Source: Struthio camelus
Lineage: Eukaryota; Chordata; Aves; Struthioniformes; Struthionidae
Assembly: GCF_040807025.1 (NCBI RefSeq)
Contig: NC_090943.1
Coordinates: forward strand, 136,969,950 to 137,033,949
Direction: 5' to 3'
DNA: 64,000 nucleotides
This document shows, piece after piece, positions 15,017 to 60,087 of this stretch; position 1 is the stretch's first letter, and each line of letters starts with the position of its first letter. A model generated the notes under the pieces. That model was not told where the DNA came from, ran no database searches, and saw only the letters and a list, made by a program, of their open reading frames with translations. Made by a program: the position numbers and the translations under genes.

Positions 15017-15347
15017 GACATGATAGGTAGAACAGAATCCTGTGCTTCAGGACAGATACCTATGGCCTACGTGAGCTGCCTTGCTTACATGCTGGAAGAA
15101 TGGACTGGTGTGGAGTACCTGGAGAAATATTTTTTTCATATGGTCATCTTCTCACTGATGATGAGTGCAATACTAGTTTTTTTTATAGTTCCTTTAACAA
15201 TCCTCTTTTTCATTTACCTTACTAATATTTTGCTTTTAATATATCAGAGGAACAGTGAGGTAAAAGCAGATCCCTTGAGTGATGTTTGGGATAATGCAAG
15301 AAAAGCTGTTGCAAGCTTCTGGGATATATATGCAAGAATATGGCATG
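15017..15347 (+). CDS. TMEM68: TMEM68 copy 1, coding exon 1 (N-terminus and membrane hairpin)
   Basis: Acceptor ctgcag at 15011-15016, ATG at 15020, donor g|gtaagt after 15347. It encodes residues 1-109 plus one base of Gly110. It opens with a Cys-containing N-terminus and EEWTGVEYLEKY, then the hydrophobic hairpin at 41-75, then WDNARK...ARIWH. This is the least conserved exon between the two copies (48 of 109 residues identical by hand count). The following intron (15348-16971) holds nothing I recognise. Confidence 0.92.
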
Positions 15348-18300
15348 GTAAGTATGGCATGACGGTTTGAAGGTTTGAATTGCAGTGGACAGTAAATATA
15401 CCTAAGTTTTAATTTTAGATTTCTTCCAAATGAGTGCGAGTAAATGATATATGTTGTACTTCCTGTGGCATAGATTGCGGATTTTCTGCCCCAAAGACTG
15501 ACTGCAGTTTAGAACAGACAGAATGAAAGGGAGAAATGAGACTATATAGGGTACATTTCTGTGAGTAGACAGATGCCCTTCTCTGTTTATGGTATCAGAG
15601 TAGACTGTAGTGTTCGTGTTAGTTCTAGTCACTTACTTGCAGGGCAGGATTATGATTTCTTTTTGTGTTTTAGTAGCTGTTCATAACCCACTTAAATGAA
15701 CAATCAAAACAAAACAACTAACTGGACAAGTAATTAGTGTATTTTTAGTTGGAGAAAACTACTCTGTTATGACAGCTTAAAATAACTTCAAGGGCTGTAT
15801 GGAAAAGAAAATAATTAGCACATTTAAATTTATACTATAGCAGAATTTAAAAGTAATCTGATTATTCAGTGTCATTATACGCAACCTTCAGGCACCTCAG
15901 CACACCCTGCTGCCTAGGAAAATCCTTAGCCCCAAGCTATGTACTCATTCTTCCCACAGGTGTAGTTTTAAATCTATAAGCAGGACTTAATTTTGCTGCC
16001 CTAATGATGAAGAATAAAATGTTATTCTCTGTGTTGTTACCCTTCCTCAGAGCTTTTTCCCTTAATCTTTGAACCTCCTGCAGTATAAAACCTTCTCCGG
16101 CTCTTCCTCAGACTCTGCCTGCTCCCTCTCTGGCCATCTCACTAAACAGCTCATGGCAGGAGTTGTAGCAGGGTTGGAGATGAAGGCAGGCAAGGTGAAA
16201 TCGAGTGCTTAGTTGGTAAGAGCTGTGGCTTTCCCAAGCCTTTGTATACGTTAGCCTACTATGCCTATGCCTACAGTTTAGCTCAAACGTAGGAAGAGCC
16301 AGGAAAGGGATTTATAGAAGTCTGCGCCTGTCAGGAAATTTTTTCCTTTGTGAAATGAAATGCACATAACTGCCATGTGGAGCAAATCTGCCTTTGGGAT
16401 TGTAATGGATTCTGCTTTGGACTTAAACACATAAACTAGGGCAACTTTTTTCTTCTGTAAAATCTGAATGGCAGGGTCCCCAGCCCAACTCTTCCTAATT
16501 TGAACACTTACATAGAAGGCCACTCATTCCCAACTTTCATTCTGTCTGGCACAGATTGGAGATTAATACTGCCTATTTTAGGAAGGCATCCAGTTAGGTT
16601 ATTTTTCTCTCATTCTCGTGATGAAGCTGTTTCATACTAGTGTACTGATTTTTTTTTAAATTACATTTTGGACCAGGAAAAGTTACAATAGGCAATAATT
16701 AACTTAGTCTACTCACTTGGTGAAAGTGTCAGGTTCAAATCTGATCTAGAGATTTAACCGGAACACAGATTACCCTACTAGGTAGGACATTCTGTGGTGT
16801 TTGAGGGGCCTTTTCTTTGCTATTGACCAAAGGGTGCCTCTAGAACTTAATTCTTTTAAAAGCTACTCCTTAGGCTCTTACAGCTCTCTCTGAAAGGCAT
16901 TCAGTAAAGGCTTTAATTCCCAGATAATTTAAAACAAACATTGTCATTGTATTACTTTCCATCCCATACAGGTTATGAGCTTCATGGTGTGGAAAACCTA
17001 CCAGAAGGACCAGGCATTCTTGTATATTACCACGGAGCTATTCCTATAGACTACCTTTACTTTTTATCAAGGCTCTTTCTCTGGAAGAAAAGACTTTGTC
17101 TGTCAGTAGCTGACCATTTTGTCTTTCGTTTACCAGGTAAGAACATGTTCTCTTGTATTTAAGCGTTCTGAATTCATTCTGCCTATTGCTGGTTTTGGTG
17201 AAATTAATAACTATTACAGTCTGAAGAGAGCTTTTAAGCAAAAAGATAGGGGGTAGGCTGGTAAATGCAGAAGAGTCAATGAGGTAGAATATCCTTTCTT
17301 TGAAGTGAAAGCTCATAAAGACGCTGGCAGCTCCTCCAAAAACAACAAACAGACATTATATAATTCCTTTGGGATGAAATTTCGTGACTAAACGGAAAGT
17401 GTAGGATAGGACTATGTTACTGACCTCATGCTGGCTGGTCAGCAGTGGATTATGAGAGCAGAAAAGCCTGGTAAATGGAGAGACATTAATTACTTAACTG
17501 CTTTTTAGACTGACTAGATACTGCAGCGGGGCATGACATCAAATCTAAATTTTTGAACAAAGCAAATGAGTCTTCTTTGAACAACTAGTCAAAAAATCCA
17601 CTAAAAGAGAAGCAGTTACAGATTTAGCCCTGAGCAGGGCGCAAAAACTTGTTTCAAGATTTTACTGTTGAAGAGCAGCTCTGTAATACGGATTACCACA
17701 ACATACTCAGATTCAACATATTATAGACTGAGAAATAAATAAATAATTGCTTTATAAAAGGGAGAAAATGTAGAAGAGCAAGCTTCATTTATTTTTAGAA
17801 AAACAAAGCATAAGGAAGAAGCAGCCAGAACTTTTCTCATCTCAAAAGAGGCTGCAAAGTAGAAAAGATAACAAAAAAAAAACAAAAAACAAGGATGATC
17901 AGAGGCATGGAATGACTTCCCCTGAGGAGGAAATATAGGACAGAAGTCTTGCATGATTGAGGGATATAAAATTCTGAGTTAATGCAAGAGGTGAATAAGA
18001 AGTGATAAGTCTGTCTTGTAGTAATTTCATGTGATGTATTGTAGTTCTTAACAGGCAAAAATATTAAAGCCAAGCAAAGGAAGTACGTTTTCACCTAATA
18101 AGGCTATGACATTCATAGTGACAGGACAAAAAATATAGATGAGTTCACAAAAGGATTAAATAAAGTCAAAATCTATCTTTGATTAAAAAAAATCTATCAA
18201 ATAAGACACACTGAATAGGATTAAGTAAGATGCAGTGACAAGATTCATCGCTGTTTTTGAAATTGTCCTGTTAAATTCTGCCATTCTTGCACCTTAAGAG

Positions 18301-21300
18301 TCATAGAACTGCCCAGTTTGACGATCTCAAGTAGTTTGCAATTTAACTGCGTAAAACTCAGCATAAAATGTTAAATGTGACATTTTAAAAGAATGCTAAA
18401 AATACATGCTTTACAGGCACTTATTTTTATAGTAATATTTATTGTACTTAAATTTTGTATTTGTTTTGTATTAAAAACATTTAAAAGAAAGGCGGGATGA
18501 ATAGATGTTAATTTCCAGATTTCCAGCTTTGAGGCACTAGTTTCTATTGCATGGCTGGTGTTTTGATAATTATGGCAAATAGCATACATAGACATTGGCT
18601 TATGGAGATGCTCTTGCTAAACTGGTTCATCCTGATAATGTTTGGGCAAAAATATTGTCCCACATTTGCCACTTTGCCAATATTTACTCTGTAGGTGGTT
18701 TATTGACTCCATACAAATTTGCCTTACTTCAAATATATAGCCATGAGATTTTCCTTAAGCTGTAATCTTGTTGTTACATGGAAACAATATTTATGATTTA
18801 AGTGTTACAATAATATGTATTTGCTATTTATTTATTATAGGACTTAAATTATTATTGAGAGTGACTGGTATTATGCCAGGTACAAGGGAGGAATGTCTTA
18901 GCGCACTGAAGAATGGACACTTGGTGTCTGTCTCACCTGGTGGCGTTAGAGAAGCACTCTTCAGTGATGAAAGTTATCAACTGATGTGGGGAAACCGAAA
19001 AGGCTTTGCTCAGGTGGCTATAGATGCAAAAGTGGTGAGTAATATATGTTACCATCCCAGTTTATGCTTGTTGCATGTATGTTTCAGTATAAAATGCAGT
19101 TTAAGAGAGTTTGCTGGGAAATCTTCTAGACAGAAGAAAAAGGTTTGAGAGTAAAGATTTCTTTTCCTCTTCTCCTATCTTCCTCAAGTATAGCAATCTA
19201 CAGGCAGCAAAGGTTTTATGGAAGTATATAGCTTTTTCTTGACTGTTGCAAAGCTTCCCTCTCTATGGTTCCATCTTGGATGAGTCTGCCTGGTTCCTGC
19301 TGTCGTCAGATGAAAAAATATTACTCTCAGGCAGGCATCTAATTTCTTGTCTTGACCACATTTCACAAACTTATGTTGTGGTCCTTCTCAATATTACTGT
19401 AATATTTGATTCTTTTTTCTCATCTTACTAGACTACTAAAATATGTTTCTCTTATTTTTCCTTCTACACGTTAGTCATTTCCTTATGGATTTTTAATGCA
19501 TTGTCCTTATTTTTCTTTCTTCCCACTCTGTTCTATGAAAGTCCAGGATTTTGTCCTTACCCTTGCTCTTCTTCATGTTTGTGAAAGAGTCCATCAACTA
19601 GCGCAAGGTGTGTCTAAATCAGTGTTTCGGTTTGGATCAGGAATGCTTTCTTGGAGCAGTTTTCCCATCTCCTCCACTTACAATGCTTTCAGGAACATCA
19701 TAGTATGGTTTCAGCGTACATGAACTGCAGTCCTCTTGGCCAAAACTACAGCAGAAGCACTCCAGGTGTGCAACATAATACTCTCAAGCTGCAAGTGGGC
19801 ATTCAGTTGATGGTACCAGACTACAGTTAGTTCTAAGTACAAACAGAACGCTGAAATGTGTCCAGTGTTGATGTTAGATCCTCAGCATCGTCTGTTTTCC
19901 TCTACAGATATGCCTCTATTGGTTTGCACTTTTTGCTAATGAACACATGGCCACAATTTCAGTTACGTTTTCCATGTGGATGATTATCTACAAATACAAA
20001 CTTTTACCACTGCGTCTGACTCCCTCCATATAATTCCACACATGAGATTGTTTCTCTGATGCAGTCTCTGGGAAATAATTTTATTTTGGATGGTATAGAT
20101 CTGAAACAGTAACTCTGTAACTCCCTATCTTAATTGCCACTTCCCATCTTCATCGTCATAACTAGGGCACAACTTTGTCTTGGATTAGGCTTAGCACACC
20201 TAGCACTCTTTGTGTGGAACATTACTAACATGCATGCAGGCTTTATCTCTTCTGCCATGAGTGTTTTGCTGCTGCTTTCCCAAGAATTGCAAAATTAGGA
20301 TTTTTATTCTCGTGAATATCTAATCCACTGCGGCGCTCTTCTTTGGCCTTCCAAGTTAATATAACCCTTTTCAGGCTATGTAAGAGTATCTGTCCTGCGA
20401 GTTGAGTTCTTCACATGAAATTTCTCACTACCCCTTTCAGTTTTTTATGTAGCTATTTCTCTTTCTTATTTCCTCTCACTTGTTGCTTGCTAAACTTTGC
20501 TTTGGTCCCTTTCTCCAAAGCTCCTACTGCATAGTGCCCAGGATTGCAAAATATATGCTTCAGGTTAATATTTCTTCATAACTGTCTGCCTTTGAAATCT
20601 TGTAGGGAGATAACAAAACAGTAGAATAAATTTAGGGGATTATCAAGTGGATAAAGTATTTTTAGCCTGGAAGACCTATTCCCAGCTCTTTGTCTGTCTT
20701 GCTGTCTGGTCTTGTAACCATTGGGAATTTTGTACTTCTGTTCCCTCTCCCTTCCTTTTTCTCAAAAGTGAGGGCTGTTAGTCACAATACTTGATACAGT
20801 GCGAGGGCTTGTACACCACCACTACTAGGAAAATAGGAGACTCTGAATAGAATAAACCCAGTCAAATTTGGATGTGCATTTGGAATTGCCTTATAATCTT
20901 TCCTTTTCTGTATTGGTATATAATAGTATACTTGGCTACTTTGCATGCAGCTTGAGTGATTTTTAGTAACTTCATTTTCCTGTTTGTCTAGTAAGCTACC
21001 TCAAACGTTGGAACAATTTTTTGCCAGATGTTTTCACTTCGCTTGGAACCTTATGGTATAATTCTACAGTTATGTGTTTTTTTTAAAAATAAAAATCGAA
21101 TTTAAAAAATCGAAATGCCCTCAACATAGGGTGCCACCCTTGATTAAAAAAAAAATCAGAAAATTCTTGCTAGAAATCCTGATCCTTACAATCTTACATA
21201 ATTTAAAAGCGTGTGGAAACAGCTGAATAGTAGTCCTTAAAATTCCTAGCACCTTCTTTTGAAAGGTGTTTTTTGGTTTAATGAATTGGATATTCATCAA

Positions 21301-24300
21301 AAATAAAATCTGTGAAGTGTGAAAGGTTCTTGTGGTGGTTTGTATTAGCCTGTCTGGTAAAACAGACACTATGTAGGACTATTACTTGGAGGGCGCAGAG
21401 GGGACTATCTTCTTTGACACCTACTAGCCTGAGCTCACCTTTACAGTGTGTCTTGCTCTCGTATCACTCCCCTTTGACTGAATACACTCATTCAGGTGTC
21501 TGTTCTCTTCTGATCAGGAAGTCTGTCTGGATTTCACTATGGTGGGCATCACTGTAACTACCTTACAGGCTCCACTGAATTTGGCAGGCTCCAACAGCCA
21601 AGAGGTTACTGAATAGCCGATAGCTCTTCTCTCTCTGCCTGTCCCAGATACCTTGCTGAAACAGCTATTAGACTGAAGTTCTGTATTTTTCTGTCAGCAT
21701 GATCATGGTAGCAATGATATTTTCAGAAAAAAGAAAGTTCCCCCTGTTAGTTTTTGTTTTGCTGTGAGAGATTTATGTGGTTACCTCTTAAAACACCAGA
21801 GATGAAAAAAGTGATTCCGATCGCACTTGCATTATTGGAACTGTCCTTGAGTCAGACACAAGGATTTAAGCATCTGTCTGCCCACAGATAATTAGTTGCT
21901 TGTCTTGTGTGCCATTCTGCATCCCAGTATAGTGATATCAGGGTTAGCTCCACTAGCAACAGCAGTTCATTTGCATAGGCGAATACATACTCCATTCTCC
22001 ATGTGGCCTTCCATGCTGTAACTGCTACACTGCTCATCCTGTAAGAAGTTACTGGGAAAAGTTACAAGAGCAGTTCTGAGAGCAGAAACTGGAACCTGGT
22101 ACTTGCGCCTCCCAGCTAATTTTTCTAACAGGACAGCAGATCTGGTTGCATGTATGTGCTCATTTAATCTCTTCCCTTCTCTCGCACCCCAGAATGAACT
22201 TTTTCACTATGCTGTAGCAGGCAATACATGCCATAAGGACATGGGAGCTGTAGATTTGAACATTTTGAGGATGAGGAGGGACTTAGCGGTATGATGACAT
22301 GTATTTTGCATAGTGGGCAAATGCTGTTTGTTCTACTATAGATAAAGATGCAGTGTTAAGTGTGCTGTAAAAGAAGAGTTCTGCTTTGTTTCTTTTTGCA
22401 GTAAAAGATGAGGGGATGAAGGAGCAGCTGAAGATGCTTATCATCCATTTGTGATATAGATGGACAAAGATGCGTCTGCTTGCTGTTCTATTCGAGTCGG
22501 ACACCCAATTTACGGAAGGAAATGGGGCTTATGCCTGACTCTCAGCTCCAGTCCCTGTGTTTGGCCCTAGAAGGCCAAAAGAGAGCAGGTGGCAGTTAAT
22601 TGTGTGAGAGCGGTATTATTTCCCCAAGTCTTCGAATATTGTGGCACAATATTGAATCTTTTTAGATAAAATATTGCAAATGGGGAAAAAAAATTAAAAG
22701 CAATGGAAACTATCAAAATGCTCTCTTAAAAAAAGCCTTCCCTTGGGACGTTACTGGTTTTAAGTTTTAGTTACTTTTAAAAACAACCAGATGTTAGCTT
22801 TCTAAAGACAGTGTAATAGAGGATAGTATTTGCAATGCTTAAGTTTCTTTGTGAAGGTTGAAATAATTTCCTAGTGTTTCAGTGATCACGTCCTTGGGAC
22901 CTCCCCATGAAAGGCGTTTATCAAGTGGTGTATCTTTTCTTCAAAATTAACCTTTACATTTAAAAAATAAATAATTTTGATGTTTTGATTAGCTCTGCTC
23001 AATGTCTTCCCCCAAAATAAACACACAAATATATTTCATATATGTGTGAATGAATGAACAGCAGACTTACTGGTGAAAACACAGCATTAATATTTGTTCT
23101 CTCTGTTCTAAATAATATCTGCCATCAGCAGAATATCAATTATGTGAGGTGTAGAAACTTCGCAGGCTTATATGCGTCACCTATATCAGTGTGAAAATCT
23201 ACATTTGACAGCTCCATGCCAAATGTGATGATTCTTAACAAATCTGCAAAATTTGAATTGCTCATTTAAATTCTTTCTGATTGTTGCACAGAGGACATCT
23301 AATTACCATTGTTCATCATGGCAGAAATAATGCTTCATTGCAATTCAGTATATTTTACTTGATTCTTTTTTTACATTCGGGAGATGAACTAGAATTTTTG
23401 TGGAAACATACCAGTTTCACTGATGCTGTCTTTAGGTAAGAATTCTGAAGTCCAAGATGGGCTTTCAGAATGGGAAGACTGAAAACTCAAAACAAATTGC
23501 TGATGAAGGCATTTAATTCCAGTGTGAAGAAGCTTACTGATTCCTAGTCTTGGTTAAGCAGAATAGAGACTTGAGCCTCTGTAGAGGCACCTGAGATGTG
23601 GAAAACAATCAGCAAACTACTGGCTGTTGGCAAATGGCACGCTATCTCCCCTTCCAGCCACGCCTAAGAAAAATGTTTAGTGTGTGTATTTGTCCCAAAC
23701 TGAAATATGAATGTTAATAATCCATTAGAATTTTGGAACTTCCAGTGCAGAATTGTAAGATAAGTTCAAAGTATTAAGTTCAAAGTAAACTCCTATTGCA
23801 GGGCAACTTACTAAGCTGTCAGCATTTCAGTGATAAGAAAGTTCCATGTTTGCTATCTAACCAACCAGTAATTATCCTCTATATTCAAGTAATTTTCTCA
23901 ACTGCATTATCAGGCACTAAAACATAAATTCAAACATGGTATAACATTTTCACCTTTTTATTTTTCTTGATTCCGTAGCCCATCATTCCGATGTATACTC
24001 AAAATGTCCGGGAAGGATATAGGATGTTTAAAGAAAGAAGTAAGAACTTTAAAATATATTTTAAGGATTTGGAATGCTTTCTTCACTTTTCTCTCAAAAA
24101 GGTTTTTCTTTTCAGAATTTTGCTTACACTGGATTCTTTAACATGCCTGCTGTGGGTCAGAGGTATCTCAAATATTGAACTATCTAGCAAGTGTGTAACT
24201 AGTGTGTGCTCTATGATTTGGTTCTTTAATGCAGTCTCATTTCAGTAATCTATTAATTCTGTCATCCTTTGTTTTGGTGGGCAGTTATTTAAATCTTAAC

Positions 24301-26533
24301 GATTTCTTCTTGACTGTCAAATGAAACGAGCACTTTAAGGAGTCTTTCCAAATCCATCAGTTTCAGCTTTGGATTGTGTTTACTGTCACTATGATCTCAC
24401 TTCTTCCCTCTTAAACTGTTACAGGATTTTTTAGACAGTTATATGAAAGTACTCGACTGCCGTTCACTCCGCCATATGGAGGAATTCCAGTTAAACTCCG
24501 CACATATATTGGGGAGGCAATTCCTTATGATCCAAATATAACTACTGAGGAATTAGTTGAAAAGGTAAGTTAGTTTTCCTTGCAATATTGAACTACACAC
24601 TTTGTTTTATATGTGCACTTGAAACTAGTTTTTTTGTAGGGTTGATTAAAGACAAGTACACTTTTACTAGCTTGTTAATATAATGGACAGTTGAGCGCCA
24701 TGCTTGTATAATGTGTGGATATCGACAAGTATGTACTGGCACAGTAACAGTTGTTTGGGATGCCCCTATCTTTTCAGAATGTGTGATAACTGTATTCTTG
24801 GAACACTAACTTAGTTTTTTCCCTCCTTGATAAATTTGATATCTGAAATAGTATAAACTGTTTTAAGTTCAATTTGAAGTAGATAGGAAAATAAACATAT
24901 ATATATATAACAAATATATTTTGAGAATCTTCCCTAAAGAACATAGGGCGCTAGAAACATCGAACAGTTCCAAAAGAGCTTCAGTCCCATTATCAAAAGG
25001 AAAACTTAAAAAAAAAATCATTCACATCCCAAATGCAAAAATATTTTGAGTACCTCCAGCTTGATGAAGTCAGTCGTGGTTAGGTGCATAACAACTTTTA
25101 TAGAAGTATGGTTTAGGCATTTTTCAAAATATTAATCTATACAGAAAACTCACTTTTTTTATTTTTCATAGAAGATGAAAGATGGCTTTATTCAGAAAAT
25201 TCTACTTCGGTCTAGGAATAGATAGATCAAAATATGGGTTAGGAATCACTGATCTGAAAATCACCTTGCTGCCCCAGAAAAGACGTAAGAAGTCTTTTCT
25301 TTGTTTGTTTTAAAGGATATGCTGCACATTGTTCTGGGCTTCATGACAGTGAAGCCAGAAAGACAGGTTTTGTCAGTTACAAGAGAACTGTCCCAGCAAG
25401 CTGCAGAGTTTGTGCTTACCAGTTTAGGAGGCTGCATGCAAGATTAATACTAAGATGGTCCTTATGGTTACCCATATTCTTGGATTTGGGGGGATTAGTA
25501 TTTTGTATACTTGCTAAACTGAAATTTAAAATTTCCACTGAATTGCTTTATTAAGCCAGGAGTTTGGCCATCCACTTCAGTGGAAGTACTGTTAAGTCTT
25601 CTGTGTCTAGTATTAGTTAAAAAAAAAAAAAAAAAACTTAAATGTGGTTTGAGATGAACGGTAGACTAGCTGATCTCTATCTGATCCTGCCTTGGAAAGG
25701 AGTCAGGAAGTGAATCTATCAGGAAAAGTTTAGCTACTCTTTGCTTATATTCCCAGTGATGTTTTACCGCCCATTTGGGGACAGATCACTGTAGTATTTG
25801 GCTACCTTATTTCAAATTTAAGTATATTAGGAAAAAATAAAAAGAGATCATTGCTATCCCTAGTGGAGATGTAGAATATTTTACTCATTTTCTTCACAAA
25901 CTTACATTTGACTTGCATGAAGACTGAAAAGTAATAGAATGTAGTTATAAGTTCTCTTATTATGTATATGCTGAGTATGATGAAATTATAGAAGAATTCA
26001 TGTTGGGAGGGACATCTGGAGGTCCCTGGTGCAACCTCTTGGTCATGGTAGGGTCGGATATGAGATCGGACCAGGTTTGTCAAGCTTTATCCAGTGCTTT
26101 TGAAAACCTCCAGGGCTGCAAAACTTTAAGACTGCAAAAACTTAATGTGTGCATGTATTAAAGGCTAATTTGACATACCAACTCCCAGGACTGAAAAGTC
26201 TTTACAATATGAACCTTACCAAACTGCAACCAATGTTCTTTTTCCATTTTAAAGGAAAATGTTGCTAGCACAGCTAGCTAAAATAAATGACACTTTTTTT
26301 TTTTTTCTTAAAGGAGATCTTACACGTGCATTTCCCAATACCTTTTGAAACTCTGGCAAGTCAGTGATTATGCTGTTTTTTCTTGCATAAGCAAATATGT
26401 AAAGGCCAACTTTCTCTTCTCTTTTCAGACAAAGACTGCAGTCCAGGCTCTAATAGATAAACACCAAACAATCCCAGGCAGCATATGGAAGGCCTTACTG
26501 GACCGATTTGATAAACAGCAGAAAAGTGATTAG
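15020..26533 (+). CDS. TMEM68: TMEM68-like acyltransferase (DIESL family), copy 1, complete in six coding exons
   Basis: Exons 15020-15347, 16972-17136, 18841-19034, 23979-24039, 24425-24564 and 26429-26533 join with consistent phases to 330 codons plus TAG. TMEM68/DIESL is an ER membrane acyltransferase of the DGAT2/MGAT/phytyl-ester-synthase group. It makes triacylglycerol independently of DGAT1/2 and is restrained by TMX1 in mammals (established knowledge). Visible: a hydrophobic hairpin at residues 41-75 broken by Pro58; the catalytic motif HG(AIPI)D with H130 and D136; VADHFVF near 155-161; SPGGVREAL at 196-204; and a C-terminal TKTAVQALIDKH block. The length is close to mammalian TMEM68 (about 324). 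ATG at 15020 is the first in its exon, three bases after the acceptor. Copy 2 follows about 9 kb downstream on the same strand. Copy 1 departs more from the family, with PPYGG and GEA where copy 2 has PMYGG and GDP. It may be a diverged paralogue with its own substrate or tissue (inference). It may be named TMEM68-like elsewhere. Confidence 0.93.
16972..17136 (+). CDS. TMEM68: TMEM68 copy 1, coding exon 2 (catalytic HG...D motif)
   Basis: Acceptor catacag ending at 16971, donor cag|gtaaga after 17136, length 165 bp, phase 1 at both ends. It carries YELHGVENLPEGPG and the acyltransferase motif YYHGAIPID (H130, D136), then VADHFVFRLP. About 35 of 54 residues match copy 2. The next intron (17137-18840) is AT-rich with no recognised element. 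Confidence 0.94.
18841..19034 (+). CDS. TMEM68: TMEM68 copy 1, coding exon 3 (SPGGVREAL motif)
   Basis: Acceptor ttatag ending at 18840, donor gtg|gtgagt after 19034, length 194 bp. It encodes residues 165-229 with EECLSALKNGHLV, then SPGGVREALFSDE, then WGNRKGFAQVAIDAKV. The PGG(V/A)REAL signature is shared by MGAT, DGAT2-like and plant phytyl-ester-synthase acyltransferases. 49 of 65 residues are identical to copy 2, which makes this the best conserved exon. Confidence 0.95.
19035..23978 (+). other. intron 3 of TMEM68 copy 1
   Basis: A 4.9 kb AT-rich intron between two well-defined coding exons. I see no transposon, RNA gene or convincing nested open frame, only short spurious frames. Confidence 0.7.
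23979..24039 (+). CDS. TMEM68: TMEM68 copy 1, coding exon 4 (61 bp micro-exon)
   Basis: Acceptor ccgtag ending at 23978, donor a|gtaaga after 24039. It encodes PIIPMYTQNVREG followed by YRMFKER, residues 230-249 plus one base. The size and phase match the copy 2 exon exactly. The second half differs: RMFKER here where copy 2 has RTLGGI. The short following intron (24040-24424) is unremarkable. Confidence 0.9.
24425..24564 (+). CDS. TMEM68: TMEM68 copy 1, coding exon 5
   Basis: Acceptor gttacag ending at 24424, donor aag|gtaagt after 24564, length 140 bp. It encodes residues 250-296 with FFRQLYE, PPYGGIPVKLRTYIG, IPYDPN and TEELVEK. About 31 of 46 residues match copy 2. The next intron (24565-26428) contains an A-rich tract at about 25620 and an antisense CR1 scrap. 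Confidence 0.94.
25980..26125 (-). mobile_element. CR1 LINE 3'-end fragment, antisense
   Basis: The + strand reads 'gttgggagggacatctggag', then 'gtccctggtgcaacctctt', and a 'cttttgaaaacctccaggg' block. This is the reverse complement of the CR1 3' region. It is degenerate and lies in the last intron of TMEM68 copy 1, 300 bp upstream of the terminal exon. Boundaries are approximate. Confidence 0.65.
26429..26533 (+). CDS. TMEM68: TMEM68 copy 1, terminal coding exon
   Basis: Acceptor cttttcag ending at 26428, then 34 codons and TAG at 26531-26533. It encodes TKTAVQALIDKHQTIPGS...LLDRFDKQQKSD, the expected C-terminal block of TMEM68. The counterpart of this exon could not be found for copy 2. 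Confidence 0.94.
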   Translation, partial: TKTAVQALIDKHQTIPGSIWKALLDRFDKQQKSD

Positions 26534-30120: not shown

Positions 30121-30121
30121 C

Positions 30122-30610: not shown

Positions 30611-30639
30611 ACGCCCCTCAACCACCCCCCCACCAATGA

Positions 30640-34793: not shown

Positions 34794-34814
34794 CCCCCCC
34801 CCCCCCCCCCCCCC
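34794..34814. repeat. poly(C) tract of 21 bases
   Basis: An uninterrupted run of 21 C on the + strand. Such runs are prone to length error in assembly and polymorphism in the population. It lies in the first intron of TMEM68 copy 2. Confidence 0.95.
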
Positions 34815-42000: not shown

Positions 42001-45000
42001 CAGAAGCAAGCTGCAATGCAAGATATTCCGATTAGGCATATGGAGAGGTATTTTTGCAATGAGGGTGGTCAGACACCTGAAAGAATTGCCCAGAAAAAAT
42101 TGGGAAAGCTCTATCCTTGAAGATTTTCAAATCAAAGTTGAGCGCGGGCCTGAGCAGCCTGATCTAATTGGACCCACTCTGGGCTAGAGGGAGGAAGCTT
42201 GGACTAGATGACCTTCAGAGATCCCTTCCAACCCAGATTATTCATTGACAGTATCTGAGAGTAAGGCTGTGCAGGGAAGACAAGCCCAAGGAGCCCAGAT
42301 ATTATTTCTGATCATGTTTTGAAATCTGTAGTAATCTAGGATTGGGTGGAAAGAGCTGCTTCTGTGAAGCAAACCAGAAAGTTTGCTATCATTTTAGCTT
42401 GCCTGATCTAAGACTGCCTGATCTTGATTAAGTCTTTAAATTAAATTGAATGCCTTTCCAGAAGGTGCTTCAATTAACCTGAAGTTAATAGGCACAGTCC
42501 AGAAAAAATGGGGAGAAAAAAGCTATGGGGTGTGTTAAATACACTTGGTTTAGATGATTTAATGAAACTTCTGTTTTTATGACTTGCGAATCTATTATGA
42601 ACAGCTGTGAGGAACGGCTTGTTTCATGAATCTGAGCTGTGAGGAACGGCTTGTTTCATGAATCTGAATGTCAGGAACTGCCACGATGCAGTCTCATTGC
42701 AACTTCTACATTGGGCACTGTGTCAATAATGTTGTATCAATACTGTGCTTCTGTTGCTTACCTTTGAGGGGCAGAAGGGATGTGAAATGTGGTCCTGAGT
42801 CTTTTTTTTTTTTTTTTTTTCCAAATGAATATTGAAGCTAGGTCACAGGAAAGAAATATACTGGTGTTTTTATGGTCTGTAGATTCTCAGCTGTGTAATG
42901 CCCCGGATTAAATTGATTTCTCCAGAGTTCAGTTAAGAGAAAGAGTGCAGTGAGGACTGAGATTTCATTTGTGATGTTCTTCCCTGTCATCCTGCCTATA
43001 GTATGGGGCATGATCTACTTCCTGGAATTCTCTAGGCACTTTATTTAAAAAGTTTCCTGCCATTTTAGGGATCTCGGATGGTCTCTCTCCTGTAATGTCC
43101 CAGAGGAAAGGAACTGTGGTTTCTTGTCTGTTATATAGACAAGGTGATGCAAAGTTAGCATCTTTTCATGCTCTGGAAGGATGACAAACTTTGCTTAAAA
43201 TACTTTCGAGGGGAGGTTTTGTTGTTGTTTAAAGTGAAAAAATAGATTATTAGTCACTTGCATGCTACAGCAAAGTGCTGCCCCACTGCTACTTCTCACT
43301 CTGTGATGACCCTTATCCTGGCCATAGAGTATGGTGGCAGGCCCCTCAGGGACGCTGCATTAGTTCCTCTCTCTGTTGCCGTAACTTAGCAGGTTCTTCC
43401 CCTTTGCTCCAGGAGCAAAGGTGTTAATAATAATGTAGGATCTGCTGGTCAGGATATGAGACATAGCTCAGAATGTAAAGTTGGTCATAGGGGCTGAAAA
43501 GTTTTGAGAGAGCCAACTTGAAACTCCACTACCACTAATCCCTCTTGCAAAGTATTGCCTATATTCTGCCTATATTTTCTTCTTGGTTTTTGACCTATAA
43601 GCTGGAGAGACTCCCATGGAGTTGCTCTGTCATTTCCCTCCTACTCTGGCATGCCCATTGCAGAAGGGAAAACTATTTTCATACCTGCTGCTTCCTTGGA
43701 GTCTCTCTTCCTGTTTGGCTCTACCTTTCTCGTTAACGTTTTGTAAGAAAGAAACTTAGAAGCAAGCAACTTTGTGCTGCCATGTACATTCCAAAGAGCT
43801 ATAATTAGTTTGGGATGTAAAATCATGCAAAATCCCCTGAACAAAGCATCTGAAAGAAATGAAATGGGTTTAGGAAAACTCTATTTCAGGAGTCTTCTAT
43901 TCAGATGCTGCTAGGTAAAGACTGCTAGTGTTACCTGCAGCGTGTGAGGCAGACATAGCCAACTATGAGACAGTGCAAGACAAGGACCTCACAGAACTGG
44001 ATGAACCTCAGCTGTAACAGAGCTTGTGTTCTGTTGTCATGTTTGTGGATAATTCTGGCTGTATATAGATATAAATGAAGAAGAATTATTCTTCACACCA
44101 AAACCTAAAACTAGTTGGAGATCAGAATTCAGCTAAGAATAAACTAACGACGTGCTGACTCGTGCTTTCCTTCCCAAGACCTTAATATATATGGACTGTA
44201 AGTCAAGACAGAACTCTGTCTTCTTAAGTACATATACTCTTCTTCTGTGTATGTAAGAAATGTGTACTGAGAGTAACAAATATTCTTTTGTTAAACCCAG
44301 GTTAAAAAGTGAAGATGTATTATTGAGGGACAAACTTGACTGGAGCAATTCTGTACTCCTTTATATGGTTGATCAGGTTAAGTTTGCCTCAGTGGGAAAC
44401 TTCAGGAAAGAAGTAATCTTTCCCATCCTGCTCTGCCATCTAAAATTCCCGTTCCAGTATTCATAAAAGCTGAGTGAATGTAAAATATTTTGAACAAAGT
44501 GAACATGATGGACAGTTTCTGAAAAATGAGGTTGCTGCTAGTTACGTTCCTTCACATTAAGCTAGTTGTCTACATTGCATAGGTATGTGTCTATCTCACA
44601 CTTGTAAACAATTTTTGATGTTTTTCTGTTATTGAAAAGCAGGGTCAGTATGACACTTCAAATTCAAGATGGTATGAAGGGTTTATGTAATTTTACACTT
44701 AAACACTTAAGCAGTAGATGAAAAAATCTGAACATGAGGTGAATATATGCAGAATGGTCTTTGTAGTGAAAGGTCGACAGTATACTTACAAACTGAACTG
44801 TGGAATTAATACCTGCAGTGATATGGAACATGGAGAATGCTGCATTTTATTTATTTTTCTCCTTCTTTTATACCCACTGCCCTTTGTTTCCCAAAGGGGG
44901 GAAAAAACATAGCAATTTGTTGGTCTGCTTTGTTAGTGGACTTTACTAGGACTATGCCACATCTGAAAAGTAGAGCTTGGGCAGGGAGACAGTGCCCTGG

Positions 45001-47609
45001 AGCAGACTTAACAACTCCTTTGAAAGAGTACATTCAAGATGGCACTGAGTGCTTGCCTTTTTTTTTTTTTTCAAGTTTAGTCCTGACTGTGAGATAGCAT
45101 CTGACTTTACTGTGACAAAAAGACACTGAAAAACCTAAATCAACTTGATAGATGAAAATTTACAAGCAAGGCTTAATGCTTCAGCCCTTCCAGAAACATC
45201 TCTGATTCAGGGATATAGGTTGTTAGGTAAGTTTTAACCATTGTGTTCCGTTTTGGGAACGAATACTCAATGGTAATGTGAATTAACATTTTTCTCAATT
45301 AATATTATCATATCCTACAGGTTTTAAGTTATTACTTGATGTACTTGGAGTTATGCATGGACCAAAAGAAGAATGTGTCAATGCTCTGAAGAAGGGCCAT
45401 CTGGTAGCCATTTCCCCAGGTGGAGTTCGGGAAGCACTCTTCAGTGATGAGACATATGTTATTATATGGGGTAATCGAAAGGGCTTTGCTCAGGTGGCCA
45501 TTGATGCAAAAGTGGTAAGTGTGACAGATCACAGAGGAGAAGCAAAGAATGCTAACTTATTAATACTTTCTTCCAGGGAAGCTGTTCTGATGATGAAATA
45601 TTTTAGTGTTAAATTGCTGAGTGTCATGAATATGTTCTACTTGCTCTTGTAACTAAGTTTCAAGATTATTTTTCTCCCTTTTGAAAAGAAGGTTTTTGGA
45701 GTCAGCTAAGAATATTATGATCAGGAAATCTGGGAAATTGGGAATTCTTAAAAGAATGGGGGATGAAATTCAGGACAGTTGCTACATTATAAGCTTGTGC
45801 TGCTTTGCACATAGGTGGTCAGGGTTGTAAAGGCACAACCTCTGACCAGAATGATTGCAAAGCAACCATACATCAGTAGTTGTATTTCCTCTGTTGCTGA
45901 AGTACGCTGAGACTCAGCAGACCGGTACTCTCTGTGATGTTATATTCATACTGGAATCATTGTTGCTATATACTGTATTGGCATTTTTATGGTAGTGAGG
46001 AACCTCTAGGTTATGTATACAGCAGCAGGAAATGCTGTTCACTAGTGTGAATGATTTCTCTTCAGTTCTATCTAATACATAGCATTATCTGCCTGCTGAC
46101 CAAGGGGACTAGTTGAGCAAGGCACATATATGTATGATATGTTTGAAATGTAACTATTTTAATAATCCTTTCAGATCAGACTCCCTCTCATTCTGTACTT
46201 GGAAGGTGTGTACATATGCTCACGGGTCTGTGTATGCCTCAGTTTAAAAAAAAAAAAAAAAAAAAGGGTGAGGGGGAGGGAAGCATCACACCCAGAGTTT
46301 TACACTTAACCAGTCTCTGTTGGACAGTAAATAAAACTCTGGATTTCAATTTTAAATGTGTGACACTTTGCCCAGGAGGAAAATAATGCAGTATAAACAG
46401 ATATTTTCAACAGATTTAAATTTTATTAGGGTATTGTAATAGCACATGAAAGGCCATACTTGGGATTCAGCTATTGTGGTTTTATTTATTTTACTTGAAT
46501 GTATGTTCAGTTCCCTTTGTGCTACTTACCATAACTGGTGGGATGGAGTAGACTAGGAACGGTGTTGGAGGCAGGCTGGAAGCAAAGAAAATAACTTTAT
46601 TTAGGTTAAAGATGAGCTTTGAATCGCTTTTAAATCATAACCCTTCCAGGAAAGGAAAATGTGCCTAAAATGTCAGTATTGGGAACTTCAGCTTCTTGAG
46701 GTTGTCTTGTTTCAGCAGTTCATTTGCCAGAGTTTTTTGATGTGTTTTGTTGTATAGACAAACTTGGTATATGCAAAAATCTCTACCTATACCTGTATGT
46801 CAAAAGTAAGATGTTCCAAAGAAGATGGTCCAGAATGTAGAAATGTGTTACCATTCAGTTTAGGCAACTGCACTTCTTATTCTCTATAATTGCATTTGAT
46901 TATTTGCAGACTTTATTTTTTAAATAAATTTCTTGTTATCTGTTGAAAAGTTTAACTTGTTAACTCATCTCCGTGCCTTTAAAAAAAGTTTGAAAGAATC
47001 TGGATGTTTGAAAATCCTGTTGAGTTGTATGTTTCTGATGCTGCTGTGTAAAGTGAGCGTCTATTACAATTTGATATTAAAAAAACTTATATAATAGAGC
47101 CCCCACCAGGTCTTGTAAATTTTGACCGCTCTTTGTAACTTCCAAAACAGCAATAAAAGCTTGAACTATTAACACTATTCCAAATATTCTTCTGCAGAAA
47201 TGAGATTCATTATGCAATGACACATTATGTGTGAAGTAATAAAATCAGCAGAGCAGAGACAAATCAGAGACGTTTAGGGTTCCAGTCATGCGAATGCTTT
47301 CCTTTGAGCATAACTGCAAATTAGTCAAGAAGTTTAACCACTTAAGTCACAAAAGTACAAACACTGCTGGATGAGGGGAGGCCTAAATGCTCCACAAGGT
47401 CTAAAATTCTGCACTGCTTGAAGAAAATCGATGTGCTGAAACAGTAACTTGTTCTCAGCTGATGTTATTCTCCAGCCTGAAACCTCATTGCTGTGGCTTT
47501 AGAACTTATGAATCCTTATTTTGCTCCTATATGTCTTTGTCTGACAAACACTTCTGAAAGTAATTTCCCCTTTAGGTTTAAGTGAGGTAGTTTTTTTGTT
47601 GTTTTTTGT

Positions 47610-47642
<33 letters not shown>

Positions 47643-49470
47643 CAGTGCCGTTGTCATTAAATTCTTACCATTTTTTTTTCCCTCCTAGCCCATCATTCCT
47701 ATGTTTACACAAAATGTTCGAGAAGGCATTAGGACATTAGGAGGAATAAGTAAGATATTTTATATATTTGTTTGTAGTCTATTTTTTCCATGCGTGTTTA
47801 GTCTATTTCTGTAGAAGTAATCTCTGTATAATTCTGAGATTTGACACAATCTTGTTTCTTGAAGTTTACTCTCTAGTAGAGTTAAATGAGATGGATACAT
47901 GTTATTGTAATTGAACACCAGCAGTAGATGTAGTATTTGCTCCTGTAAGTTATTCTCTGCATAGCAATGGGCCTTCATGTAAGGAGTAGAAGAGAGGAGG
48001 AAAAAATGAGCCAGAACAAAGGCAAATACATTAAGACTTTTTTTTCCTCTCTATTTATATCTGCTAGGCCAACTCTAGGCTTTCTGCTGCCTGTTAAGAA
48101 GCAAAGGAAACATAAAGGTTTGCAACCGACAGCCAATTTCTTTAAATGTCCTCTTAAAGCTCTGTGCTGAAAATCTCTACCTGTACTTAAACTTCAAATG
48201 GTTTGAAGTACAAATAATACATAGTTAGCTTACTATTTGCCACAAAACCTTGTATTTGCATGCTGTCTTCCTCTTTCCTCACCTCTTTAGGAGTTCCAGT
48301 CGACACACTAACAGGTGGATATAAGCCTAAAAGGTCCTCCTCTAGGATGGTTAGATGCCCACATCTCTGCAGATCTGCTAGTGTCAAACTCCTCTCTTTT
48401 TCATTCTTCAACGTGCTCTTTGGCAGAGAGGGCCAAAACAGTCTCTTCCACTCAGTGTGTTCTGTCTCAAATGTGGCATAATCATGTTCATCAGAAGACT
48501 GTAGGGCAAAGCAGTTCCCTACCTCTCTACCCTCTAATTAGGAGCAATACATTGTGCGGAGAAAGGTCAGGCATCAATGTAGATAGGCAAAATGATTCAC
48601 ATTCTTCAGGCCCTACCAAAATAAAAAGCAATTAACTGTTGCTGTGCTCGGGAGAAGTGCTAGGGTTTGCAGGGCCTCAGACTAATCTGAATCTTCCCCA
48701 ACATGCTACTTGTATTCTACAGCAGAGGTACTAAAGGGGTTAACTAACATGCTATTAATTGCTGGAAGTATTACTCCAGTTTCAATAGTTTTGGAATATT
48801 CTTTGTTCTTACAGGCTGTATACAGAAGAAATCACATCTGTCAGTAAGGACTTTCTTATACCAACACTCTATTGAAGGAATTTCTTGTCAAAAATTGAGA
48901 GAAATTCTCACCTTTTCTGGGAGAAATGTGTTCTGTTGATGCTTGGGATAGCTGCCGAGGAAATGGCATGAGAGAGAAAGAGCAGAGCAGACTGAAATAA
49001 CCTGTTTTTTTTCCCCTCTGTGTGTAGTGTTTCCCTGCAACCAGTGTGTGGTCAGAAAGAGCAAGTTCAGCATTGTAGCCTTTTAGGTAGATACGACTGT
49101 TTCTGATCCTTTGGACCTAGGTGGGATTGAAGAGAACAGTTTTCCAGCAATGCTAGTTTCTTATGCTAAACTCTAAGATTAGCTGAATTGTAACCTGGAT
49201 TGTGTCGCGTTCCCTTCCTCCTCAGAGAGGCAGCTACTGGATTTTTCTCCTGTTCTTCTCTTTGCAGGTATTCTTTGGAGAGATTTCACTCTAAGTGAAA
49301 CAAGTCTTACAGTAGCATTAATACAGTTTTTATTAAATGAAAGTCAAGGGTAGAATAGCACTTGCAATGACATGCGGCTTTGAGAAGCTGGGGCAAGGGC
49401 TGGCTTACCAAACAAACCAGTTTAAGTTTTAAAACATACTGGGGAAAAAAACTTATGGAATAATCTTAAT

Positions 49471-49510
<40 letters not shown>

Positions 49511-49651
49511 GAAATATTTAGGTCACTATATGAGCATCTGAGATTGCCAGTAGTTCCTATGTATGGTGGATTTCCAGTCAAGCTTCGTACATTTATTGGA
49601 GATCCCATTCCATATGATCCAAATGTAACTGCTGAGGAATTAACTGCAAAG
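35718..49651 (+). CDS. TMEM68: TMEM68 acyltransferase (DIESL), copy 2, five coding exons visible, last exon missing
   Basis: Exons 35718-36045, 38285-38449, 45321-45514, 47689-47749 and 49512-49651 join in frame to 296 residues with no stop. Family knowledge: TMEM68/DIESL is an ER acyltransferase for ether- and triacylglycerol synthesis, with TMX1 as partner. Visible: a hydrophobic hairpin at 41-75 (Pro50, Pro58); the catalytic HG(ATPV)D with H130 and D136; VVADHFVF; SPGGVREAL at 196-204; PMYGGFPVKLRTFIGDP; and AEELTAK at the end. Of the pair, this copy looks closer to mammalian TMEM68 (FYHG, YFMAK, MYGGFPVKLRT, LGG), so it is the better candidate for the orthologue. ATG at 35718 lies three bases inside its exon, as in copy 1. 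The C-terminal exon of about 34 codons is not visible. It probably lies in the assembly gap at 51615-51814 or is unrecognisable. The transcript probably ends at the poly(A) site near 53417. Confidence 0.93.
38285..38449 (+). CDS. TMEM68: TMEM68 copy 2, coding exon 2 (catalytic HG...D motif)
   Basis: Acceptor taacag ending at 38284, donor cag|gtaact after 38449, 165 bp. It encodes YELHGIENIPEGPG, then FYHGATPVD with H130 and D136, then VVADHFVFKLP. The Thr and Val inside the HG...D motif differ from copy 1 (Ile, Ile). The catalytic pair is unchanged. Confidence 0.94.
41225..42250 (+). mobile_element. CR1 LINE fragment, sense, about 1 kb, degenerate
   Basis: Broken frames on the + strand still show reverse-transcriptase and C-terminal ORF2 landmarks: an S-G-V-x-x-G region at about 41310, 'aaatatgaagtcacgcatct' (K-x-x-V-T-H-L-G), 'gtgaaaccacgtcttggaac', and the 3' end 'gcttggactagatgacctt' plus 'gatcccttccaaccc'. 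There are several stops and frameshifts. It was inserted in gene orientation in intron 2 of TMEM68 copy 2. Confidence 0.85.
42603..42666. repeat. perfect 32 bp tandem duplication
   Basis: The unit beginning 'agctgtgaggaacggcttg' and ending 'catgaatctg' occurs twice in succession without a mismatch. The perfect match implies a recent event or an assembly artefact. Confidence 0.95.
45321..45514 (+). CDS. TMEM68: TMEM68 copy 2, coding exon 3 (SPGGVREAL motif)
   Basis: Acceptor cctacag ending at 45320, donor gtg|gtaagt after 45514, 194 bp. It encodes GFKLLLDVLGVMHGPKEEC, then AISPGGVREALFSDE, then WGNRKGFAQVAIDAKV, residues 165-229. 49 of 65 residues match copy 1. The next intron (45515-47688) has an A tract at about 46243 and a long T tract at about 47613-47639. 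Confidence 0.95.
47689..47749 (+). CDS. TMEM68: TMEM68 copy 2, coding exon 4 (61 bp micro-exon)
   Basis: Acceptor cctcctag ending at 47688, donor a|gtaaga after 47749. It encodes PIIPMFTQNVREGIRTLGGI plus one base. It retains the R-x-LGG loop that copy 1 has lost. The next intron is 47750-49511. Confidence 0.92.
49475..49506. repeat. (TC)n microsatellite serving as splice-acceptor polypyrimidine tract
   Basis: About 16 uninterrupted TC dinucleotides end five bases before the acceptor AG (49510-49511) of coding exon 5 in copy 2. The repeat is therefore in effect the polypyrimidine tract of that exon. Confidence 0.92.
49512..49651 (+). CDS. TMEM68: TMEM68 copy 2, coding exon 5
   Basis: Acceptor cattag ending at 49511, donor aag|gtaaga after 49651, 140 bp, same phase as copy 1. 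It encodes IFRSLYEHLRLPVVPMYGG, then FPVKLRTFIGDPIPYDP and AEELTAK, residues 250-296. A good donor at its end shows that at least one more exon follows. Confidence 0.95.
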
Positions 49652-51614
49652 GTAAGATAATGTGTGTGTGAGTATTATGCATATGTGTGTTTATATACAT
49701 GTGTGTGTATGTGTGTATATATATATATATGTATGTATGTATAATTTAAAATCTGCTCTAATACAAAACACTAGAATATACTTGTCAGGATAATGACTTT
49801 TGCCTGGGAGCTAGTTACAGAAGTTGATGGAATCATGAAAAATTTTGGATTTACTGTGAACTCTGAATGCTCCTCCTAAATACTGTCTTTTATAACTGGA
49901 CTTGCAGAAACTGTAGGCCTTTTAATGTCAATACTGTATGCTGTATTTGCTCCGAGAAACAACTCACTTTAGAGCCTGAAGAAGTTCAGTCAGATAAAAG
50001 TACCTCCACTTACTGCTCTGGATTGGTAAAGAAAGTCAATGAGCACTTCTCCCAGGGAAAGCATTCTTTTTTTTAATCTTCTAAGCAAGATACTAATGAA
50101 GCCTTCCAAATTTAGTCAACCTGTGGTTGCAAATTGTGGAATTTCCATACAATAGAGCAGCTAAAGCCAAATCATTTCACAGCTTTGCAAAGTCTATTTC
50201 CATTTCTATTTCCTCCAACTTGTCATGCAACAAATTTATTTGTGAATGCTCCCTTCTTCAAACTGAGGTCATTTATAGAGAGAATTGTCAGGTTTTCATG
50301 TTCCTTTAGTTTGTGAATAACTTTCATATTGCAGAGGCACAAAGCCAGTAAGTCGTGGAACAGTCGGACTAGGGGGGAGGTTTGAAATATCCATTTTTGA
50401 AAGCTTCACAGATGATCATTGTTAGCATTGTGAAAACTTCACATGAAGGGAAATAAACTTTTATTTTTGACCATGCCGGTATCAGTTCAGTTGCCTCTCG
50501 TTACCTTTTTTATCCTCTGATAAGATCTATGCAAAATGACATCTTAAAATATTCATCTGCATTATCCTATGACCTGTTTATGGAAAAGTGAGTGTTTCTG
50601 CTGGGGTTTACACATGGCTCCAGTCTGACAGAGCTTCTGAATTGCTGGCTTTTGGGAGAGTAGGTCTGTTTAAATGACATCCAGCCGTGCTTGGAGTCTT
50701 ACCTTAATGCCCACTCTCACTTGCTTCTGTCTTAAATGCAAATTCTGCTAGGTAATGCCCTTAAAGTGTGAATTCCCTGCTATCCTAGTTCAAGTGATTC
50801 TAGTGTGTTTCAGACTGTGGCATAGTATGTAGTTTCCCATTATGCATAGCTAAAATGTGAGCTTATTTTTTTCCTAATAGAAGCTTTAGATTTGTAAAGG
50901 CACTTGGGGTCAGATCCATAGAGACATGGCAGGAATCTGCTCCCAAGATTTTACAGTTTAACGCACATTTCATATTAGCAGTAAGAGTTTGTACCAAAAC
51001 TTACTTTTACTTTTACACTCTCAAGTGGGTGTGCTAATCACTGGTTTACAAAAGGCAGGTAGGTTTCTGTTCTGTCTCTGGCCTTAAGAATTGACTTGTC
51101 TTTGTTTCTCTAGGCACAACAGGAAGGTTACTGCGTGTCCTCACCATAACTTTGCATATTGCCCTGGATTTGAGTGTTCCCCATAGAGCTATTATATAAT
51201 AAGAATGGCTGCTATTAACTTCTTGGCCTGCTACACTTTTGAGTGAAAGTGAACGTTGCTGTCATATGCAGTATTTTAAGTGTGATCTAAGCATGCTTTA
51301 CTGGACTTGCTCCTTTAGGGGACTTGGGTGCAGGGATAATTACTTTGTAAAAGCCAAGTGGACAAAAGTAGAAGACAACTGTGTTTCCAGTGCTGCTTTT
51401 GAGCATATGTAGAAGTCCTTGCACACTGAAGAAGTGCTACTGCTGCAAACGTGGGCATTGACAGGAGTTTCTGGGTTGCACTACAGTACACAGGCACTGA
51501 CATGTTTCTGGATCTAGGTCTCTTCATTAGTTTACTGTGTCATCATTTTACTATTGCATATCACTAGTAGAGCTTGGTAAACACAGTGAACACAGCTGCT
51601 GAGGAGCTTGGAGA
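49652..51614 (+). other. last visible intron of TMEM68 copy 2, up to the gap
   Basis: After the dinucleotide repeat this is AT-rich unique sequence. I searched it by eye for a counterpart of the copy 1 terminal exon (TKxAVQALIDKHQ) and found none. Short open frames here have no resemblance to the family. Confidence 0.5.
49655..49745. repeat. mixed (TG)n/(TA)n dinucleotide repeat
   Basis: Alternating TG, TA and TATG repeats start a few bases after the donor of copy 2 coding exon 5 and run for about 90 bp. Confidence 0.85.
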
Positions 51615-51814
51615 NNNNNNNNNNNNNNNNNNNNNNNNNNNNNNNNNNNNNNNNNNNNNNNNNNNNNNNNNNNNNNNNNNNNNNNNNNNNNNNNNNNNNN
51701 NNNNNNNNNNNNNNNNNNNNNNNNNNNNNNNNNNNNNNNNNNNNNNNNNNNNNNNNNNNNNNNNNNNNNNNNNNNNNNNNNNNNNNNNNNNNNNNNNNNN
51801 NNNNNNNNNNNNNN
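51615..51814. other. assembly gap of exactly 200 N
   Basis: The round length suggests a placeholder of unknown true size. It lies inside the 3' part of TMEM68 copy 2 and is the most likely location of the missing terminal coding exon. Confidence 0.98.
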
Positions 51815-52560
51815 GGATTAGAGCTGTAGTGAACCAAGCAAATTTGTTTCAGAAACTGCTCAGAGCAGTGAATCAGAACCCTATAGTGCAGTCGCTCTTT
51901 TAAGTAGAACCATATTGCATGTTACTCCTGAGTAAAGAGTATATGTTATCCCATATACTTCTTACTGAATCCGTAAATTCTCCTTTGACAAAATGAACCA
52001 AGCATTTGAACTTTTAAAAACAGAAATATGAGTCCCATTTAGTACCATGTGTTCAGAATGCTTTATTTTGAAGGAAAGAAATGAAAAATTAGCACAACTT
52101 GTAACACTTCTTTTTAGAACAGTGGTTCTTTTGAAAAACAGGGTAAACATTCCCAAATACCCTTTAAATCTAGTATATAATCTGCTAAATATCCATGTGC
52201 TTCAAACATAATTTTTATGTTAAGTTACTATATCAGGTTGAGAGGGAAAGCTTATATACTTTCCTTAAATAAAAGCCATTGAGGAGTTGCAACAGGAGGA
52301 GTTGCAGGGTCGGGCTTGTGTGCTCTCATAGCATATTACGTTTTTTTCTGAACTAAAGCCTATGCTTTTATTGTCCAAATAGGAGTATCTGAAATATTTC
52401 CTCTGATTGCCAGCAAGTTTAATCTACAGTTTCTAAATTAGCATCTGGGAACTCTTTAGCTGTGGGATGAGATCAGATTCCTTAAGGAAAGGCAACAGGC
52501 ATTTTTGCTTTATTATGTGATCTCCTTTCAATAGTGTTGAATTTTTGACCTTTTCTTAAC

Positions 52561-53440
52561 AGACAAAAACGGACAACAATTTTGTTTTTAAACAGCAATT
52601 GTATTCCAGTTGTTATCTATTCCTCCAAACACTTAAGCATATGCTTTGCCTTATACTCCTTCAGTTGTGTAATCCCATGGATTTTAAACAGTGGATATCC
52701 CATGGATAAGTGCATGAGGATGATGCCCTATGTTAGAATAAAATCACTGACTCGGAAAGAATCTATAAATGATGATCTGCAAAACACCAAAAGTACACAC
52801 ATTAAATAGGTGATTTTTTTTTTTTTAATATATCAAAAGCATTTTATGTGGTGCTGGATTAAATGTTTTAAAGCTTGGGGAAAAATCATGTTAGGTAAAA
52901 AGAAATGCCCATTTCAGAGTTTTTTTTTGTTTGTTTTTAATGATTTGGGTTTTACTTGAAGACAAGATTATGTCCTTTAAGTTATTGGAATATATTTCAA
53001 AAATATTATGTTAACACAAAATATCATTAAAACTGAGAATGCTAAAATGCTACATCTGAGTACAGCTTAAGTATGACTTAGTTTTTACGGTCCAGCTTGA
53101 GGAAAGTGTAGATCAGTCTATACTGTGAAATTCTCAAAGGCGACTAAACCATACTTTAATGTTGTGGTTGCATATATGTAGAAGAAAACTCAATTTAAAG
53201 GGTTCTATTAGATGTGAACAGACCTTTGTGATCTTAGATTTTGTAAAATTTATTTTACTAAATTTGAGGGCCGTGTTTAATGCAACTTTTGCCCCTTTAA
53301 GTACAAAGACAAGTATCAAAAGTCAAGTGCAGTATTGGTACTCTTTAGATGTTCATATTTGTATTTGTATAGACCTTTCATATTTATATTTAAAAATGTA
53401 TAGAAGACACCTTCCAAATAAAATTGACAACTAGAACAGG
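52561..53440 (+). other. probable 3'UTR of TMEM68 copy 2; possible terminal exon start
   Basis: A strong acceptor (ttttcttaacag) ends at 52561-52562. The exon-like sequence after it begins acaaaaacg, which in the required phase reads T-K-T like the copy 1 terminal exon. It then departs (DNNFVFKQQ...) before a stop after about 48 codons. The rest is AT-rich, UTR-like sequence that runs into a poly(A) signal at 53417. It could be a terminal exon with a replaced C-terminus, or a chance match inside the 3'UTR with the true exon in the gap. I prefer the second. Confidence 0.3.
53417..53422 (+). terminator. polyadenylation signal AATAAA, likely of TMEM68 copy 2
   Basis: AATAAA is followed about 30 bases on by the GT/T-rich stretch 'gattgtgttgtgtttttg', a textbook downstream element. 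It is the best poly(A) site in the window and fits the end of the copy 2 transcript. Confidence 0.6.

Positions 53441-60055: not shown

Positions 60056-60087
<32 letters not shown>

Follow-up and report, generated by a model that had tools for sequence, protein, structure and literature searches.

A tandem pair of TMEM68/DIESL-type acyltransferase genes in Struthio camelus: a probable TMEM68 orthologue and an old, diverged second copy

Organization of the locus

The window, by which we mean the whole 64,000-nucleotide stretch of Struthio camelus DNA that was analysed, contains two genes encoding TMEM68/DIESL-type proteins, designated copy A and copy B, that lie head-to-tail on the forward strand. 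The features are listed below. Coding exons are from the script-derived gene model, with residue or sequon checks where these are named, the CpG islands are from a CpG scan, and the poly(A) signal is from its motif.

6801–9400, no strand assigned: CpG island at the probable promoter of copy A
15020–15347, + strand: copy A (probable TMEM68-like gene), coding exon 1 from the ATG; luminal N-terminus and TM1
16972–17136, + strand: copy A, coding exon 2; carries H130 and D136
18841–19034, + strand: copy A, coding exon 3; GGVR motif, and Leu166 opposite Phe166 of copy B
23979–24039, + strand: copy A, coding exon 4
24425–24564, + strand: copy A, coding exon 5
26429–26533, + strand: copy A, terminal (sixth) coding exon, ending in TAG
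30201–31800, no strand assigned: CpG island at the probable promoter of copy B
35718–36045, + strand: first coding exon of copy B, the probable orthologue of TMEM68/DIESL; contains the Asn5 sequon (NES)
38285–38449, + strand: copy B, coding exon 2; H130 and D136
45321–45514, + strand: copy B, coding exon 3
47689–47749, + strand: copy B, coding exon 4
49512–49651, + strand: copy B, coding exon 5
51615–51821, + strand: 200-N assembly gap (51615–51814), probably holding the terminal exon of copy B, with GAT TAG at 51816–51821
53417–53422, + strand: AATAAA, a possible poly(A) signal for copy B

Copy A is complete, its six coding exons between 15020 and 26533 amounting to 330 codons followed by a stop. 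In copy B, five coding exons, with 296 codons in all, can be read between 35718 and 49651. The two genes have common coding-exon lengths of 328, 165, 194, 61 and 140 bases (328 being the coding bases counted from the ATG, as the first-exon entries are coding starts), agree in phase and have GT/AG borders at their introns. The tandem pair with equal exon lengths and phases described in the first-pass annotation is thus borne out, and its statement that both frames are open holds for the whole of copy A, but for copy B only over the 296 codons.

Comparison of the last exon of copy A with the translated frames of 49640–64000 gave no convincing match (best score 32). The likeliest account is that the terminal exon of copy B probably lies inside the assembly gap. 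The sequence immediately after the gap reads G-GAT-TAG, the last codon and stop as in copy A, these seven bases being weak evidence. Further AATAAA motifs are found downstream of copy B at 52268 and 52737; with several such motifs, the transcript end is not fixed, and the end at 53440 given earlier is compatible with the AATAAA at 53417.

Several repeats were also observed. A GC-rich minisatellite of 1.1 kb (7420–8546; units of 20, 24, 62 and more bases) lies inside the CpG island of copy A, and the long open frames within it are probably spurious. A second, CAACA-rich minisatellite (30117–30591; unit lengths near 32 and 105 bases) extends into the CpG island of copy B from its 5' side. Downstream of copy B, the minus strand at 55635–58066 contains reverse-transcriptase-like open pieces, split over several frames, which we take to be a CR1-type LINE. 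Both the repeats and the compactness of the locus have an avian look.

Similarity of the two copies

The two copies align without gaps, with 177 of 296 residues identical, reproducing the earlier hand count, and 620 of 888 bases identical; differences occur at 92, 55 and 121 of the 296 first, second and third codon positions, respectively. The alignment score is 1005, compared with a mean of 36.3 and a maximum of 50 for shuffled sequences (n=200). A DNA comparison of 1–28000 with 28001–64000 (E≤1e-3) returned nine matches, of which five are the coding exons, three are pieces of a repeat of dispersed type, presumably CR1, and the last is GC-rich and in inverted orientation. When exons were masked, a single 50-base match (10015–10064), within the dispersed repeat, was left between 9400–28400 and 31000–53440. 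An intron trace of the duplication is therefore no longer detectable, which argues that the duplication is old. Short matches between repeat pieces were seen near 9943–10064, 25990–26115 and 42199–42248.

The dN and dS values between the copies are 0.283 and 0.930 (NG86), 0.276 and 0.710 (LWL85), 0.268 and 1.485 (YN00), and 0.275 and 1.031 (ML). The dN/dS of about 0.18–0.39 is a pairwise value and hence an average over both branches, not a constraint on copy A alone; read in this way, it indicates purifying selection. The first-pass annotation had proposed an old duplication kept by selection, and both parts agree with these data: the introns are alike in only one repeat piece, dS is 0.71–1.49 by the four methods, and selection has been purifying on average. 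The pair is a genuine tandem duplication of long standing, under constraint on average.

It is very improbable that copy A is instead a recent copy or a decaying pseudogene. Such an origin would fit the missing Asn5 sequon, the replaced Phe166 and the largely altered TM1 sequence, but the open frame of 330 codons with GT/AG introns, the dN/dS well below 1, the restriction of intron similarity to one repeat piece, and the reported transcription of the likely chicken counterpart (see below) all argue against it.

Domains and conserved residues

Both proteins match PF01553 and PF03982 above the respective cut-offs of 23 and 22 bits (48.2 and 23.7 bits for copy B; 46.4 and 26.9 bits for copy A). 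Along with the match to mouse Tmem68 described below, this supports the earlier assignment of both to the TMEM68/DIESL type. All 13 solved-structure matches listed for copy B (E≤1) are to ribosomal protein uL6/L9, with E values of 0.085–0.12, and a relation to this protein was rejected as due to chance. Rfam gave no match at gathering scores.

Residues were matched by numbering, the number in the window being the mouse number plus one. H129, D135, G198, R200, P229 and F165 are named as motif residues in mouse (PMC5417663). The corresponding H130, D136, G199, R201 and P230 are present in both copies, as is P233, in accord with the earlier statement that the catalytic residues, here the H130/D136 dyad, are intact. 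The literal HxxxxD spacing named in PMC5417663 is found in neither copy, since five residues separate H130 and D136 in both. In the reported experiments, mutation of the dyad (H130A in human DIESL; H129A with D135N in TMEM68, mouse numbering) abolished the gain in lipid droplets or triacylglycerol (PMC10482677, PMC9916437). The mouse F165 of motif II, described as possibly important for substrate binding (PMC5417663), corresponds to F166 in copy B and L166 in copy A.

The identity between the copies is unevenly distributed, with 90 of 126 residues identical in 111–236 and 10 of 26 in TM1 (51–76); the values for the other regions are 23/50 (residues 1–50), 16/34 (77–110) and 38/60 (237–296). 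The membrane anchor is thus the region where copy A differs most. Cysteines 8, 20, 152 and 183 are common to both copies. Asn5 of human DIESL is reported to be glycosylated, and loss of the glycan left triacylglycerol accumulation unaffected in cells without TMX1 (PMC10482677). The Asn5 sequon is kept in copy B and absent from copy A, which has no N-glycosylation sequon before residue 287.

Probable assignment of the copies to TMEM68 and TMEM68-like

Codons of mouse Tmem68 were taken from the primers given in PMC5417663, PMC9916437 and PMC10482677, with the exception of codon 130 (mutated), the C-terminal primer and the ambiguously placed codons of the TM1F primer. Over the resulting 81 codons, mouse agrees with copy B at 58 and with copy A at 36, and A agrees with B at 43. 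Mouse agrees with B only at 27 sites and with A only at 5 (sign test, p=1.1e-4), and A agrees with B only at 12. On the basis of 58 against 36 shared residues, copy B is assigned as the TMEM68/DIESL orthologue and copy A as the extra copy. Two of the four zebrafish tmem68 guides in PMC11663968 could be placed, the remaining two giving no clear placement; guide 2 (VFTPLV) matches B at 4/6 residues and A at 0/6, and guide 3 (DGARKT) matches B at 3/6 and A at 4/6. Each outgroup search with the A and B alignment relied on a pair of short peptide patterns, from the N-terminus or the middle of the protein, which distant relatives could escape; no relative was confirmed among 101 pattern matches in bacterial contigs and 46 in viral contigs.

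The order on chicken chromosome 2, from the coordinates given in PMC11210043, is XKR4 (110,760,621–110,984,213), TMEM68 (111,010,166–111,029,857), LOC421125 'transmembrane protein 68-like' (111,032,635–111,051,679), TGS1 (111,084,380–111,107,118) and LYN. By these coordinates, TMEM68 and LOC421125 are adjacent between XKR4 and TGS1, 19.7 and 19.0 kb long and 2.8 kb apart, and their upper gene ends are 21,822 bp apart, compared with 20,698 between the two ATGs and about 22–23 kb between the CpG islands of the window. Neither TGS1 nor XKR4 was identified within the window. On the premise that both chicken genes are transcribed in the direction leading away from TGS1, the orientation we take human TMEM68 to have, copy A corresponds to TMEM68-like and copy B to TMEM68, in agreement with the mouse match. 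Gene order, spacing and the mouse match of copy B, as distinct from direct sequence comparison, thus make LOC421125 (TMEM68L in PMC12193209) the most likely counterpart of copy A. The pair in the window is very probably the one already annotated in chicken, which makes it less unexpected than first thought. In the open-licence papers seen, no study on the evolution or enzymology of the TMEM68-like duplicate was found, and the extra copy seems to be uncharacterised.

Timing of the duplication

Two placements of the duplication are compatible with copy B as the orthologue of mammalian TMEM68 and copy A as an old paralogue. In the first, to which we give somewhat less than an even chance, the duplication preceded the split of mammals and sauropsids and the A copy was lost in mammals. 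This is suggested by the closer agreement of B with mouse (58/81) than with A (43/81), and by a dN between A and B (0.296) that exceeds that between mouse and B (0.170) in a fraction of 0.99 of the bootstraps (246 usable out of 500). The same pattern would, however, be produced by a later duplication with faster evolution of A. The silent sites, being near saturation, are not decisive, with dS between A and B lower than that between mouse and B in 0.67 of the 246 bootstraps. Additionally, published construct numbering suggests that TM1 is one residue longer in both A and B than in mouse, a difference that is not polarised.

In the second, which we put at even odds, the duplication is younger than the split from mammals, having taken place on the line to sauropsids, archosaurs or birds, and A then evolved faster. 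Acceleration of one tandem copy is common, and the 12 of 81 sites at which A and B agree and mouse differs are consistent with a duplication after the split. For this placement, replacement sites in A must have changed at a markedly higher rate, since A alone differs at 27 sites and B alone at 5.

Expression of the likely chicken counterpart

Genes linked to LOC421125 by name appear in several chicken expression studies. In a study that sequenced ovary RNA from 120 hens, cis-eQTLs are reported for a gene 'potentially mapped to LOC421125', one SNP also being an eQTL for the neighbouring TGS1, and this gene is put forward as a candidate for cumulative egg number by reasoning from the function of TMEM68 (PMC12203006); a review restates this result and calls the gene TMEM68 (PMC13299478). 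TMEM68L is reported to be lower in large testes (PMC12193209). In the trachea of chickens challenged with Mycoplasma gallisepticum, 'Transmembrane protein 68-like' is among 21 tabulated down-regulated genes in two of three comparisons, with log2FC of −6.727 relative to negative controls and −6.482 relative to birds that were only vaccinated, a drop of about 100-fold (PMC7885271). Six of these 21 genes are classed under cilia, and the section title describes the genes as mainly ciliary (PMC7885271).

The transcript check called for with the first annotation thus has a positive answer from ovary, testis and trachea, in chicken and provided that copy A is LOC421125. With the link to copy A made by name and position, expression of copy A would probably be cell-type-specific, ciliated airway epithelium and gonads being the best candidates, and the reported regulation is not that expected of a plain second storage enzyme. 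The tracheal decrease may reflect merely damaged epithelium, as bulk tissue cannot separate loss of cells from regulation.

The presence of cilia genes alongside TMEM68-like in the tracheal set led us to examine the promoters for RFX X-boxes, the consensus of which we take to be GTNRCCNNRGYAAC and GTNRCCATGGYAAC. The former gave 54 matches with up to 2 mismatches (61.4 expected) and the latter 21 with up to 3 mismatches (38.3 expected). With up to 1 mismatch, the CpG island of copy A contains no site, compared with 0.3 in simple shuffles; by the same measure, the island of copy B contains 1 (0.15 expected) and the window 5 (3.1 expected). The site in the island of copy B, at 31595–31608, is near-palindromic with 1 mismatch. 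A ciliary promoter of this kind for copy A is therefore unsupported.

Functional implications and comparison with mammalian TMEM68/DIESL

Taken as a whole, it is highly probable that mammalian TMEM68 (DIESL) has its orthologue in copy B and that copy A is an old tandem paralogue, most likely LOC421125, that has diverged. TMEM68/DIESL is described as an ER acyltransferase that makes triacylglycerol, a DGAT1/2-independent synthase reported only in 2023, with its MGAT/DGAT activity held down by TMX1 (PMC10482677, PMC9916437). By analogy, copy B would be an ER triacylglycerol-making acyltransferase. Copy A keeps the catalytic core, so that acyl transfer is still very probable as a prediction from sequence, and a role as a second storage-lipid enzyme, which the first-pass annotation stated outright, is a plausible candidate. 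Its regulation, membrane placement or substrate would probably differ, given the diverged anchor and luminal end, the lost N-glycan site and the leucine in place of the putative substrate-binding phenylalanine. A more specific proposal, which we regard as doubtful, is that birds keep a second DIESL-type acyltransferase, lost in mammals, as an enzyme of ciliated cells and gonads, with an altered anchor and substrate pocket and no luminal glycan, perhaps free of TMX1.

A paralogue with the same catalytic core and a different anchor and luminal end would offer a ready-made test of which parts carry the control by TMX1, and the likely chicken counterpart of copy A is of added interest as the egg-number candidate noted above (PMC12203006).

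Copy B shares with mammalian TMEM68/DIESL both domains (acyltransferase and DAGAT), as well as the Asn5 sequon and the phenylalanine of motif II. Copy A has both domains and the dyad but differs in its diverged TM1, Leu166 and the absence of the Asn5 sequon. The spacing of the dyad is shared by all three proteins, as the published numbering of human DIESL (H130 and D136; PMC10482677) likewise places five residues between the histidine and the aspartate.
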